Under the pieces are notes generated by a model. That model was not told the origin of the DNA and made no database searches. It saw nothing but the letters and a program-made list of their open reading frames with translations. From Methanolobus sediminis (GTDB lineage Archaea > Halobacteriota > Methanosarcinia > Methanosarcinales > Methanosarcinaceae): 64,000 nucleotides of DNA. Positions 16,922-21,703 of this stretch are shown here, one piece after another. How positions within the stretch are numbered: the stretch's first letter is position 1; the number at the start of each line of letters is the position of its first letter. The position numbers and the translations under genes were made by a program. Where the stretch lies: positions 2,170,001-2,234,000 of the forward strand of contig NZ_CP133592.1 of NCBI RefSeq assembly GCF_031312595.1. Reading direction: 5' to 3'.

Positions 16922-17752
16922 ATGAAAGTCATTTGTGTTGCAGGATATAAGAATTCAGGCAAAACAACTCTGGTTACCCGCCTTGTTGAAGCTCTTTCCG
17001 AACACGGGAAGGTTGGAACTGTAAAACAGATGCTTCATCACCGTTTCAATCCGCAGGACACTGATACGGGAAAACATTTCGATGCAGGTGCTGATCTGGT
17101 AGCGGCGATAACAGATACTGAGCTTGTAACCATTAAACGTGATCCTACTCTGGAGGATGCTCTGGACTCTCTTGCAGACAACGGAGCAGACTTTGCAATA
17201 GTTGAAGGTGCAAAAAGCAGTGATCTTCCAAAGATCTTCCTTGGTGAGCCGGAAGGCTCTGATGAGATCTCCAATATACTTGTCAAACTGCCTGTAAGAT
17301 CTGAATGGCATATGGCTCCTCTTGTTGAACTCATCCATGATCAACCTGAATGGGTAACACTTGACTCTCTTATCAGAAAGGTGCGAGCCAATCCAAACAT
17401 CCGTCTTTCAGGCGGTATCGCAACATTCACCGGAATAGTCCGCCGTATCAACAATAATGTGGAAACGACTGCCATAGATTTTGAAAAATATGACGGTGTT
17501 GCTGACAGAGCTATTGAAAAGATATGCATTGACATGAAACAAAAGGAAAACATAATTGATGTACTCATTCATCACAAAACAGGACTTATTAGATCGGGTG
17601 AGGATATCGTTTACATAGTTGTGGCTGCCGCTCACAGGCAGGAGCTTTTCCAGACACTTGTCGATTCACTTGAGCGTATAAAGGAAGATGTTCCTATCTG
17701 GAAAAAAGAGTACACCATTGAAGGTGATTTCTGGGTTCACGACAAGCTCTGA
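16922..17752 (+). CDS. MobB-MoaE fusion (molybdopterin synthesis)
   Basis: The N-terminal about 135 residues are MobB: Walker A AGYKNSGKTTLVTRL, TVKQMLHH, and an IVEGAKSSDLPKI strand. The C-terminal part (about 150-276) is MoaE, the large subunit of molybdopterin synthase: GGIATFTGIVR, AAAHRQELFQTLVDSLERIK, and the catalytic lysine motif PIWKKE...GDFWV. MoaE adds sulfur carried on MoaD to precursor Z; MobB assists guanylation to the dinucleotide cofactor. Such fusions occur in other methanogens. The cofactor made here is the one needed by the FmdB/FmdD enzyme encoded 20 kb away. There is no frameshift between the two parts. Confidence 0.92.
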   Translation: MKVICVAGYKNSGKTTLVTRLVEALSEHGKVGTVKQMLHHRFNPQDTDTGKHFDAGADLVAAITDTELVTIKRDPTLEDALDSLADNGADFAIVEGAKSSDLPKIFLGEPEGSDEISNILVKLPVRSEWHMAPLVELIHDQPEWVTLDSLIRKVRANPNIRLSGGIATFTGIVRRINNNVETTAIDFEKYDGVADRAIEKICIDMKQKENIIDVLIHHKTGLIRSGEDIVYIVVAAAHRQELFQTLVDSLERIKEDVPIWKKEYTIEGDFWVHDKL

Positions 17753-17796: not shown

Positions 17797-18207
17797 TTAT
17801 CTGTTCTTCAGTCCCATCTGCTCATCTATTTCTTCGGCGATTTCTTCCAGTTCCTGGAATATGCGCTCGGAATCTTTTCTCATTTCCTGTACCGCAGCCT
17901 TAAGACTTCCTCCACGAATGTACAGTCCTCTTTTTTCTCTATAGATAAGTCCTGAATTGATAAGGTTCCTTATGTGGTGGTTCACTCTGGACTGGTTGAC
18001 CTCAATACTCCTGGCTATGATATCTGATGATATTTTATCCTGGTTTTCTGCCAGCTGCTGAAGTAGATCGAGGACTATCTGTGTAGCAAGGTTTTCCGTA
18101 TCACGGCCGGAAGATAATCCGAAACTGTCACAGAACCAGCGAATATCTTCTTCCAGTCTCTTTTCTCTGGGTTTTTCCAGATTTACGAGGATAATCTGCT
18201 GTGGCAT
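17797..18207 (-). CDS. Winged-helix regulator, likely heat-shock repressor
   Basis: A 136-residue protein with a central winged helix (about 40-100): QDKISSDIIARSIEVNQSRVNHHIRNLINSGLIYREKRGLYIRGG. The ends are charged helices suited to dimerisation. It is divergent from hsp20-clpB. In Archaeoglobus the regulator HSR1 is encoded next to hsp20 and represses heat-shock genes; this gene has the same kind of location, though I cannot show orthology. A TATA box (CTATATATAC, 18231-18240) lies about 29 bases ahead of the ATG, so its message has almost no leader. A perfect inverted repeat lies just upstream of that box, suggesting autoregulation. Confidence 0.72.
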   Translation of the reverse strand: MPQQIILVNLEKPREKRLEEDIRWFCDSFGLSSGRDTENLATQIVLDLLQQLAENQDKISSDIIARSIEVNQSRVNHHIRNLINSGLIYREKRGLYIRGGSLKAAVQEMRKDSERIFQELEEIAEEIDEQMGLKNR

Positions 18208-18230: not shown

Positions 18231-18240
18231 GTATATATAG
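18231..18240 (-). promoter_or_regulatory. TATA box of the divergent regulator gene
   Basis: CTATATATAC on the minus strand about 29 bases before the ATG at 18207. It abuts the inverted repeat at 18251-18275, so a protein bound there would sit on the BRE region. Confidence 0.5.
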
Positions 18241-18250
18241 CTTACTTGTA

Positions 18251-18284
18251 TTTTATCGATATCATCTCGATAAAAACGATAAAA
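18251..18284. promoter_or_regulatory. Candidate heat-shock operator: inverted repeat plus third half-site
   Basis: TTTTATCGA (18251-18259), seven-base spacer, then its exact reverse complement TCGATAAAA (18267-18275), immediately followed by a third copy of the core, ACGATAAAA (18276-18284). It lies between the TATA boxes of the divergent regulator and of hsp20. A 9-base perfect repeat in this position is the expected form of an operator for the dimeric winged-helix protein next door. Confidence 0.6.
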
Positions 18285-18304
18285 TAGCTATTTTCTACAA
18301 AAGA

Positions 18305-18312
18305 TTTAAATA
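18305..18312 (+). promoter_or_regulatory. BRE-TATA promoter of hsp20
   Basis: TTTAAATA preceded by the purine-rich AAAAGA. The predicted start of transcription is near 18335, leaving a leader of about 115 bases before the hsp20 ATG at 18451, unusually long for this genome region. Confidence 0.5.
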
Positions 18313-18340
18313 GGAAATCCACAATATAATTGTTCAGTTA

Positions 18341-18356
18341 ACAGGAGTTATCCTGT
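18341..18356 (+). other. Leader hairpin ahead of hsp20
   Basis: ACAGGA-GTTA-TCCTGT, a perfect six-base stem with a four-base loop, at the predicted 5' end of the hsp20 message. It contains an AGGAG, but that lies too far from any start codon to be the main ribosome binding site. The same ACAGGAG word recurs at 18437-18443, in the real ribosome binding site, so the TCCTGT arm could also pair there. Confidence 0.35.
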
Positions 18357-18450
18357 TCCTATCATGAAACAACAATTACAAAACAGAAAACAAACGGAAC
18401 CGCCGGACGACCAAAAAAATCAGAATATCCATGAGAACAGGAGTGATAAT

Positions 18451-18912
18451 ATGAGATTTGGTTTAACAAAAGTAACGCCAGCAAGAAGTGGAGTATGGAA
18501 TCCAATGGAAGAAATAGTGCAGATGCAGGATATGTTAAACAACATGTTTAAAGAGAGAAGTTTCGGGGACAGATGGTCAGAACCTGGAATTCTTGCACCT
18601 CTTGTGGATGTTAAGGATGAAGGTTCCGAATTACTTGTCACAACCGACCTTCCGGGAGTGGAGAAAGATGATGTTGACCTTGATGTCAGCGATAACATGC
18701 TGACAATATCTGCAAAGCGCAGTTCAGACAAAGAAGAAAAGGACGAAGGATACCTGCGCAGGGAAAGGACTTACAGTTCATTCTCAAGAACTGTGACCTT
18801 ACCAAACACAGTCTCTGCAGAAGGTGCAAAGGCAAAACTCGAAAACGGTGTGCTTACTGTTACTTTGCCAAAGCTGCAGATAGAAGAAAACAAAAAGATA
18901 CCCATCGAATAG
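18451..18912 (+). CDS. hsp20: Small heat-shock protein Hsp20
   Basis: A 153-residue alpha-crystallin-domain protein: LAPLVDVKDEGSELLVTTDLPGVEKDDVDLDV, the LENGVLTVTLPK signature, and a C-terminal IPI motif (KKIPIE) used in oligomer contacts. It holds unfolding proteins and hands them on to ClpB/Hsp70 systems. I place the start at ATG 18451 because AGGAGTGAT lies at 18439-18447; the in-frame ATG at 18364 would add 29 low-complexity residues (many Gln, Asn, Lys) and has no close ribosome binding site. The next gene is clpB, 175 bases downstream. A run of T (18973-18978) after a weak stem may end part of the transcripts. Confidence 0.93.
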   Translation: MRFGLTKVTPARSGVWNPMEEIVQMQDMLNNMFKERSFGDRWSEPGILAPLVDVKDEGSELLVTTDLPGVEKDDVDLDVSDNMLTISAKRSSDKEEKDEGYLRRERTYSSFSRTVTLPNTVSAEGAKAKLENGVLTVTLPKLQIEENKKIPIE

Positions 18913-19087: not shown

Positions 19088-21703
19088 ATGGATCTTAATC
19101 GTTTCACACAAAAAGCCCAGGAAGCTATCCAGGGTTCAAGTACAATTGCTGCAAGATACAGAAACCAGCAGATAGACTGCGAACACATGCTTCTTGCATT
19201 GCTGGAACAGAGTGGGGGACTGGTAACAACCTTACTTCAGAATATGGAAGTTCCGGTGGACCGCGTAAAGGAGAAAGTTGAGTCTCAGCTTGCAGGTCTT
19301 CCTCAGGTGTCAGGGCCTGGCGGCGATCAGGTATACATGACTCAGACCATGAGGCGCGTCCTTGATGCTGCTTCACAGGAAGCCGGCAAGATGAAGGACG
19401 AATATGTAAGTGTCGAACACCTCCTGCTTGCAATGGTGGAAGAAAAGGACAACCAGTGCGGTAAAATACTTGCAAGTGAAGGCGTTACACGTGACAGACT
19501 TCTTGAAGCGATAAAGCAGGTAAGGGGGAATAGAAGAATAACTTCAGAGAATCCGGAAGACACAATGGAACCATTAAAGAAGTACGGTATAGACTTCACA
19601 GAACTTGCAGCTCAGGGTAAGCTTGATCCAGTTATCGGAAGGGATCAGGAGATAAGGCATTCAGTTGAGATACTTTCACGCCGCAGGAAGAACAACCCTG
19701 TACTTATCGGTGAAGCTGGTGTAGGTAAGACTGCAATTGTCGAGGGTCTTGCACAGCGTATTGCCAAGAAGGATGTTCCTGATGCCATGAAAGACAAGCG
19801 TATCATTGCCCTTGATATGGGTGCATTGATAGCCGGTGCCAAGTTCCGCGGTGAGTTCGAAGAGAGGCTCAAGGCTGTACTTAAGGAAGTTGCAGATTCC
19901 GAAGGTCAGATAATTCTCTTCATTGATGAGATCCACACAATCGTAGGTGCAGGTGCCACAGAAGGTGCAATGGATGCAGGAAACCTCCTCAAGCCAATGC
20001 TTGCACGTGGTGAGCTTCACTGTATCGGTGCTACAACTGTTGATGAATATCGTAAGTACATTGAAAAGGATGCTGCACTTGAACGCAGGTTCCTGCCGGT
20101 ATTCGTTGAGGAGCCAACAGTAGAGGACACAATTTCCATCCTCCGTGGACTGAAGGAGAAATATGAGGTACACCACGGTGTACGTCTTAAGGACTCTGCA
20201 CTTGTGGCTGCTGCGATCATGAGTCACCGCTACATTGCAGACAGGTTCCTTCCAGATAAGGCGATTGACCTTGTAGACGAGGCTGCTGCAAAGAAGAGAA
20301 CTGCAATTGACAGTAAGCCTGCAGAACTTGACGAGGCTGACCGTAAGATCATGCAGCTTGAGATCGAGCGCGAGGCATTGAAGAAGGAGAAGGATGCTGC
20401 TTCAAAGGATCGTCTGGAAATTCTTGAGAAGGAACTTGCTGATATCAGGGCTGAATCCGATGCAATGAGAGCAAGATGGGATCGTGAAAAGGAAGCGATT
20501 TCAAAGCTTGGTTCACTGAAGCAGGAGATAGAGGACACGAAGATCCAGCTTGAACTTGCTGAGAACGACAACAACCTTGAGCTTGCTTCCAGACTCAAGT
20601 ACGGAACTCTCATTCCACTGCAACACCAGTATGCTGAAGAGGAAAAACTGCTTCAGGATATGCAGGGTGAGATGCTTCTTAATGAGGAAGTCGGCGAAGA
20701 GGATATTGCCGATGTTGTCAGCCAGTGGACCCACATACCTGTAACAAGGCTTATGGAAGGGCAGCGTGAGAAGCTTGTGCACTTTGAAGACAACCTGCAC
20801 AACCGTATCATAGGTCAGAGTGAAGCTGTAAAGGCAGTTGCAGATGCGGTTATACGTAACTACGCAGGTATCAAGGACCCAAGGCGTCCGATTGGAAGTT
20901 TCATCTTCCTTGGTCCGACAGGTGTCGGTAAGACCGAGCTTGTAAAAGCCCTTGCAGCAGAGTTGTTCGATGATGAGAACAACATGGTGCGTATTGACAT
21001 GTCCGAGTACATGGAAAAGCACACCGTTGCAAGGATGATCGGAGCACCACCCGGTTATATCGGACATGATGAAGGTGGACAGCTCACAGAAGCAGTACGC
21101 AGAAGACCATATTCAGTTGTACTCTTCGATGAGATCGAAAAGGCGCATCCTGATGTGTTCAACGTCATGCTTCAGATACTTGATGACGGTCGCCTGACCG
21201 ATTCCAAGGGCAGGACCGTGGACTTCAAGAACACGCTGATAATCATGACATCCAACATCTTCGCAGGAGATCTTACAGAAGTCCTGAAGTCCGAGGAGGA
21301 TGCACAGGATGTGGATTACAACATACTGCAGATGCGTGCAATGACCGAGCTTGGAAAGTATTTCAGGCCGGAGTTCCTCAACCGTGTTGATGAGATTGCT
21401 CTCTTCCATGCACTCAAGCCTGAAGAACTTGTCAGGATCGTTGACATCAAGGCTGCCGATCTTGTAGAGAGGCTTAAGGACAAGCGTATCAGTCTTGAGC
21501 TTACAGATGCAGCAAAGGCATATCTGTCAAAGGCAGGATACAGTGAAACCTTTGGTGCAAGGCCACTTAAGAGAGTCATTCAGAACGAGGTCGAGACAAG
21601 GATTGCAAAACTCATTGTTGCAGGCGACGTGCCGGAAGGTTCAACAGTGGTCGTTGACAGCAATGGTGCAGAGCTTACTGTGGATGTTCGGTCTGCGGAA
21701 TAA
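19088..21703 (+). CDS. clpB: ClpB disaggregase
   Basis: An 871-residue full-length ClpB. N-domain (about 1-145: [25 protein letters not shown]), AAA1 with Walker [16 protein letters not shown], a coiled-coil middle domain (about 400-530, rich in E/K/L), AAA2 with [15 protein letters not shown], and the C-terminal small domain. It rescues aggregated proteins with DnaK and small heat-shock proteins. The family is bacterial in origin and present only in some archaea, mainly mesophilic methanogens and haloarchaea, so the gene was acquired by transfer at some time; its codon use is not visibly different. GGGGAG precedes the ATG. Confidence 0.97.

Follow-up and report, generated by a model that had tools for sequence, protein, structure and literature searches.

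How do archaea control the GroES-GroEL chaperonin that they acquired from bacteria? No answer was found described in the literature searched. The question is raised by an intergenic region of Methanolobus sediminis, where a gene for a putative winged-helix regulator is divergent from an hsp20 gene and a palindrome lies between them. The region belongs to the window, which here means the whole stretch of 64,000 nucleotides that was analysed. A sequence-only reading had taken the palindrome for a heat-shock operator of a distinct sequence class, with an extra half-site that might make binding graded or cooperative. The features discussed below are collected in Table 1.

Table 1. Features of the regulator-chaperone region and related elements. 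Positions are those of the window unless a genome and contig are given.
Feature	Position	Strand	Remark
Winged-helix regulator, 136 aa, likely operator-binding protein	17797..18207	-	PF01022 (HTH_5); 89/111 family genomes
TATA box of regulator gene	18232..18239	-	11 bp from O1
O1, 25-bp palindromic operator (putative)	18251..18275	.	sole strong site in own genome
O2, degenerate second operator (putative), 20 bp downstream of O1	18271..18295	.	family-wide signal at shift 20
TATA box TTTAAATA of chaperone promoter	18305..18312	+	29 bp from O1
Inverted repeat AACAGGA-GTTA-TCCTGTT in expected 5' leader	18340..18357	+	window fold z -2.2 vs letter shuffles
hsp20 coding sequence, likely true start	18452..18912	+	PF00011; start by comparison with L003
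clpB coding sequence, next in operon	19088..21703	+	
TATAGAA-N3-CAAACAATCA element, grpE-dnaK (L237)	G000:C1:2047865-2047886		
TATAGAA-N3-CAAACAATCA element, thermosome (L238)	G000:C1:1849807-1849828		

The palindrome

The palindrome, O1, has the form TTTTATCGA-TATCATC-TCGATAAAA and is directly followed by ACGATAAAA at positions 18276-18284. The perfect inverted repeat and the adjoining third half-site (18251-18284) are therefore present as the sequence-only reading had described them, and so are the TATA-like boxes on both sides. O1 is the sole match in the window with three or fewer mismatches. In 100 dinucleotide shuffles of the window, the mean number of O1-like matches was 0.04, and four shuffles had one. 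Across the 2.8-Mb genome, the pattern with three mismatches fits one further place. In an operator model made from sequence (R1), O1 scores 24.6 bits on one strand and 21.6 on the other; the next-best site of the genome, with 16.6 bits, lies within a coding ORF.

When the best 25-mer ahead of the regulator gene is taken from each of 81 Methanosarcinaceae loci, the consensus is TTTTRTMGAtATSATwTCKAYWWWW, in which the near-invariant letters T6, A9, A11, T12, A14, T15, T17, C18 and A20 are each found in at least 75 of the 81 loci. The 7-bp “spacer” of O1 is itself kept across the family and near-symmetric (wATSATw), so that the operator is taken as a 25-bp dyad. The family operator matrix was trained on the same 81 loci. 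Two family operators are doubtful, those of L073 and of L072, the latter AT-rich; neither locus entered the symmetric matrix, the spacing classes or the O2 counts. Covariation across the dyad was tried as support and rejected: among 75 distinct sites, two of 12 mirrored pairs had p ~0.045, and three were less paired than expected.

The regulator protein

The regulator matches PF01022 (HTH_5) with 28.7 bits, against a cut-off of 22, as expected for a winged-helix protein of the ArsR/HTH_5 type. Its predicted model, with a mean pLDDT of 68.7, shows a wHTH; the best Foldseek match to this model in the PDB is MarR/MepR-like (E 2.3e-3), and no closer family emerged from that search. The nearest named record, from M. 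vulcani PL 12/M, is 98% identical. The recognition helix reads R(V/I)NHH in 31 of 33 compared rows. C26 is invariant in all 26 aligned family rows and missing from the distant regulators of L207, L209, L211, L212 and L213, so a universal cysteine switch is unlikely.

A gene at 16922-17752 of the window adjoins the regulator, as it does in L003, a close relative. From the appearance of its sequence, we take it to be a MobB-MoaE fusion.

Genes facing the regulator

The regulator was found in 89 of the 111 Methanosarcinaceae genomes searched. Loci were fetched from 85 of these (G009, G072, G089 and G094 were left out), and 81 were usable after setting aside L101, L102 and L103, where the regulator is truncated, and L105, which has a run of N. 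In all 81, the first gene on the divergent side encodes a chaperone: groES followed by groEL in 63, clpB in 15, and hsp20 followed by clpB in three. That the operator serves hsp20, as had been proposed, would hold for the window, but the usual target is groES-groEL.

The same arrangement is found further away. Of 392 genomes from the phylum, 85 have a match to the regulator profile, and 26 of the 85 lie outside the order. The gene context was retrieved for 20 of the 26 distant matches; G328 was added as a remnant. Among the 20, the regulator faces groES-groEL in 19 loci and hsp20 in one (L216), which gives a chaperone neighbour in all 20.

Within the family, groES was found in 68 of the 111 genomes. 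It is absent from all 18 in which the regulator faces clpB or hsp20, and in these genomes both the regulator and the operator persist. The close relative L003 (the same genome as G062) has the order groES-groEL-hsp20, with clpB beyond. This order indicates that the operon of the window is a shortened one, in which groESL is missing and hsp20-clpB stand behind the kept promoter. Comparison with L003 also makes ATG 18452 (MRFGLTKV, with AGGAGTG ahead) the more likely start of hsp20 than ATG 18364.

On a 99-row regulator tree (L099 and L100 left out), the groES label changes 11 times, and at least six of these changes are forced by well-supported branches; the tree is built on 135 columns only, with many forks unresolved. 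A mirror case is the Methanosarcina-type genus g13, where a ClpB match was found in one of 30 genomes, with 58% identity.

Promoter geometry and probable mode of action

On the regulator side, 66 of the 81 loci have the start of TATA 9-11 bp from O1. On the chaperone side, the distance from O1 to TATA is 29-30 bp in 64 family loci, 49-51 bp in 15 and unclear in two, with three TATA picks corrected by hand. Among the 20 distant loci it is exactly 9 bp in 14, 8-10 bp in three and 29 bp in two. Operators always lie upstream of TATA, and their distances make a helical ladder of 9, 29-30 and 49-51 bp. As with activators adjacent to the BRE, the palindrome stands upstream of BRE/TATA at a conserved distance. 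The length of the spacer stays at 29 in distant rows, where operator identity is 0.67 and spacer identity 0.43, against 0.32 expected from composition.

With a period of 10.5 bp, the spacing classes of the main locus fall in a single phase (R 0.96), with p 0.007 for a fixed period and 0.037 when the period is searched. This result comes from few independent events and is suggestive. The spacing class changes six times on the tree if L216 is taken as 9. When the distances at grpE promoters are included, p for the nine spacing classes is 2e-5 (fixed period) and 5e-4 (searched), with 29 counted three times and the grpE TATA distances (20, 30 and 41 in different loci) picked by eye.

Activation is favoured by the constant helical phase and by a position ahead of BRE/TATA, and the regulator probably activates the chaperone operon. 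A different reading, rather unlikely, is that it represses this operon and is released under stress, like Phr or bacterial HrcA/CIRCE. Phr and the general picture in part of a review are of repressors (PMC9133787), CopR represses its own divergent gene (PMC7830388, in part), and a lone operator 9 bp away from TATA, as in distant genomes, could hinder TFB. However, archaeal repressors as set out in part of PMC5937170 sit over the BRE, TATA or start site or further downstream, and in 79 of the 81 family loci 29-51 bp separate O1 from TATA on its downstream side, which is too far for O1 to cover any of the three. The nearer O2 is weak. CopR itself both activates its target and represses its own gene, so activation of the chaperones and control of its own gene would be compatible in one divergent regulator.

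Inverted repeats also occur in the leader, near the expected start of the chaperone transcript. Their sequence varies by genus, and complementarity is kept in many; that of the window is a possible hairpin. An RNA role was considered and not adopted: 43 of 79 leaders have z < -1.5 against letter shuffles, which is insufficient for such a claim.

The third half-site and a proposed second operator

The extra half-site beside O1 (GATAAAA) is evident only in close Methanolobus relatives. The most plausible reading makes it the left half of O2, a degenerate second operator lying two turns of the helix further down, and not a half-site of its own. Every offset was scored in the 64 loci with the 29-bp spacing (the 29-bp class); the best after O1 is exactly 9 bp from TATA, which is 20 bp downstream of O1; offsets of 8 and 10 bp score far lower. 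Over 79 loci, the near-invariant letters fill 0.67 of cells at shift 20, against 0.35 +- 0.11 at other shifts (z 2.8). The rival shifts 11, -11, 40 and 29 reach 0.57-0.61 (0.61 for 11) and partly overlap with O1. Weighted by genus, shift 20 reaches 0.72, against 0.37 +- 0.03 in 1000 shuffled spacers; it is the best shift overall and ranks first or second of 25 in eight of nine genera. The 49-51 class (15 loci) again has a second site 20 bp from O1, and possibly a weak third. An O2 at this shift would account for both the third half-site and the spacing steps of about 20 bp.

The half-site could instead be a separate direct repeat that receives an extra monomer, outside any second palindrome. 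Its restriction to close relatives would fit this, and so would the weakness of most individual O2 sites: that of the window has six of the nine near-invariant letters and a matrix score of -6.3, and a score above 0 is reached in only 15 of the 64 loci in the 29-bp class. Against it stand the rank of shift 20 across the genera and the position of O2, which is where distant genomes have their single operator; a lone half-site is improbable. The left half of O2 remains the preferred reading.

Pairing of regulator and operator

Evidence that the palindrome belongs to the divergent regulator can be provided by genomes that have the regulator and by those that have lost it. The sequence-only reading had itself held that a repeat not conserved in relatives with the same regulator would count against it; in these relatives the repeat is kept. 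Beyond the family, the family-only matrix detects the operator in 19 of the 20 distant loci, with scores higher than the 99th percentile of shuffles (6.5). In L216 the best operator score is 4.0, below this threshold, and the regulator has a differing recognition helix.

In the 392 genomes, regulator and Cpn10 (PF00166) are both present in 65, regulator only in 20, Cpn10 only in nine and neither in 298, a tally that takes in a few fragmentary regulator matches. The operator was not found upstream of groES in any of 11 regulator-free genomes, namely the nine with Cpn10 only plus G001 and G002, where scores run from -10.6 to 3.7. Likewise, clpB genes away from the regulator in G029 and G030 show no operator, with scores of -1.8 and 4.7; the latter is above the 95th percentile of shuffles (4.1) and below the 99th (10.3). 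Where the regulator is truncated and clpB kept (G017, G022, G023 and G024), no operator site scores above 0.

Operator and regulator are thus kept and missed together, which makes it very probable that they form a pair. That some other protein binds the palindrome while the divergent regulator acts elsewhere is highly improbable, since, although the pairing is drawn from sequence and palindromes between divergent genes can serve unlinked regulators, this joint presence and absence and the position of O1 as the sole clear site in its own genome argue against it. It is well supported that the palindrome is a conserved operator of the winged-helix regulator facing the chaperone operon, which the regulator would bind. 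The supposed heat-shock operator of a distinct class does behave as a chaperone operator with its own sequence class.

Other heat-shock promoters

The sequence-only reading had suggested looking for the repeat upstream of dnaK and the thermosome. A search of the whole genome places no copy of the palindrome at the thermosome promoter. At grpE-dnaK there is no more than a weaker site, and that in part of Methanolobus. Operator-like sites above the 99th percentile of letter shuffles were found in 17 of 30 grpE loci, nine of them above the highest of 1500. All 17 belong to the 27 loci of the genus Methanolobus (L128-L154); in other genera, two of 20 grpE loci exceed their 99th percentile. The Methanolobus sites are mostly 20 bp from TATA and strong only in G057 (26.2). 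The site of the window's own genome, TTTTGTACACTTCATTTCGCCAAAA (L133/L237), is weak (14.3), is without two of the near-invariant letters and is not listed by the R1 model up to E 10. On these data grpE-dnaK is only a possible second target.

Second sites were also fetched within the family. Thirteen of 20 lie within ORFs of at least 90 aa and were taken as chance. Seven lie outside such ORFs: one, in G057, is upstream of grpE-dnaK, and six have no obvious chaperone near (L108, L116, L117, L119, L124 and L127).

The grpE-dnaK and thermosome promoters of the window's genome have another element in common, TATAGAA-N3-CAAACAATCA, placed over TATA and beyond, with 0 and 2 mismatches. By eye, eight of the 11 regulator-free groES promoters carry it (L217-L222, L227 and L228), and three have a diverged form. 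It is a candidate for a general archaeal heat-shock element. Since this different element stands at grpE-dnaK, at the thermosome and at regulator-free groES, there appear to be two separate heat-shock circuits.

Comparison with known systems

The bacterial CIRCE repeat has the consensus TTAGCACTC-N9-GAGTGCTAA. A second groES in G066 (L226, G066:C30:29760-30400) lies behind a repeat that we presume, from this consensus, to be CIRCE-like; the contig is probably a bacterial contaminant. The pair described here resembles HrcA/CIRCE in being a dedicated palindrome and regulator for groESL. O1, as TTTTATCGA-N7-TCGATAAAA, differs from CIRCE in sequence and lies upstream of the promoter, and no HrcA family appears among the regulator's matches up to E 0.1, of which 21 are to Pfam and 11 to NCBIfam. 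The pair is therefore not HrcA/CIRCE, the bacterial chaperonin repressor and inverted repeat named in part of PMC5904260.

Phr of Pyrococcus and HSR1 of Archaeoglobus (arCOG01684) are self-controlling HTH regulators of hsp20 and other stress genes (PMC9133787, PMC5852551, both in part). They are the only regulators of the archaeal heat-shock response named in the portion of a 2022 review drawn on here (PMC9133787). The present regulator would likewise be an archaeal HTH regulator of chaperone and stress genes, and self-control is proposed for it too. Whereas Phr is a repressor seated on the transcription start, the present regulator has its putative operator O1 29 bp upstream of TATA, ahead of a start site placed by inference. 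No chain named Phr is among 31 PDB sequence matches up to E 1, and no Phr is among the 50 fold matches listed for the model. On these comparisons, which concern Phr, the regulator does not appear to be of the Phr/HSR1 kind.

TFB-RF1, EarA and CopR have palindromic or repeated sites directly upstream of the BRE (PMC5937170, PMC5512572, PMC7830388, each in part). The site of TFB-RF1 also keeps a conserved distance from the BRE, and CopR is divergent to its target. Their targets differ, being a transporter, the archaellum and copper, and a 20-bp ladder is not mentioned in those portions of the papers. For Methanolobus psychrophilus, start sites that depend on temperature are reported at two hsp20 genes (PMC5378194). 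The regulator and operator are not described in the portions covered of that paper or of PMC9133787, PMC5852551, PMC5937170, PMC7830388, PMC5904260, PMC5512572 and PMC9694453, and no description was found in the literature searched, which takes in few subscription papers.

A model for chaperone control

In the proposed model, the regulator binds O1, most likely as a dimer, and would bind O2 more weakly, on the same DNA face and two turns of the helix further downstream. The bound protein would sit upstream of its own promoter, with O1 11 bp from TATA, and upstream of the chaperone promoter, with O2 at 9 bp and O1 at 29 bp. It would thereby set transcription of both its own gene and the chaperone operon, the latter most likely being activated by recruitment of TFB/TBP or RNA polymerase. 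The inducing signal is probably protein-folding stress. The protein would then be, with somewhat better than even probability, a dedicated archaeal chaperone regulator, likely an activator, that also controls its own gene.

A wider proposal is more tentative, and slightly less than evenly probable. Several methanogen families may share one dedicated activator of the bacterial-type chaperonin, with tandem operators every 20 bp. The operator block would have grown in whole steps (9, 29 and 50 bp to TATA) with its phase kept, and the circuit would have outlived repeated losses of the chaperonin by way of ClpB or Hsp20.

The locus offers one protein, one 25-bp site, an exact spacing and natural losses of the regulator. 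Because orthologs occur in Methanosarcina, where genetic tools exist, the question of how the acquired chaperonin is controlled is directly testable. If the wider proposal is true, these archaea would have a stress activator opposite in sign to Phr.
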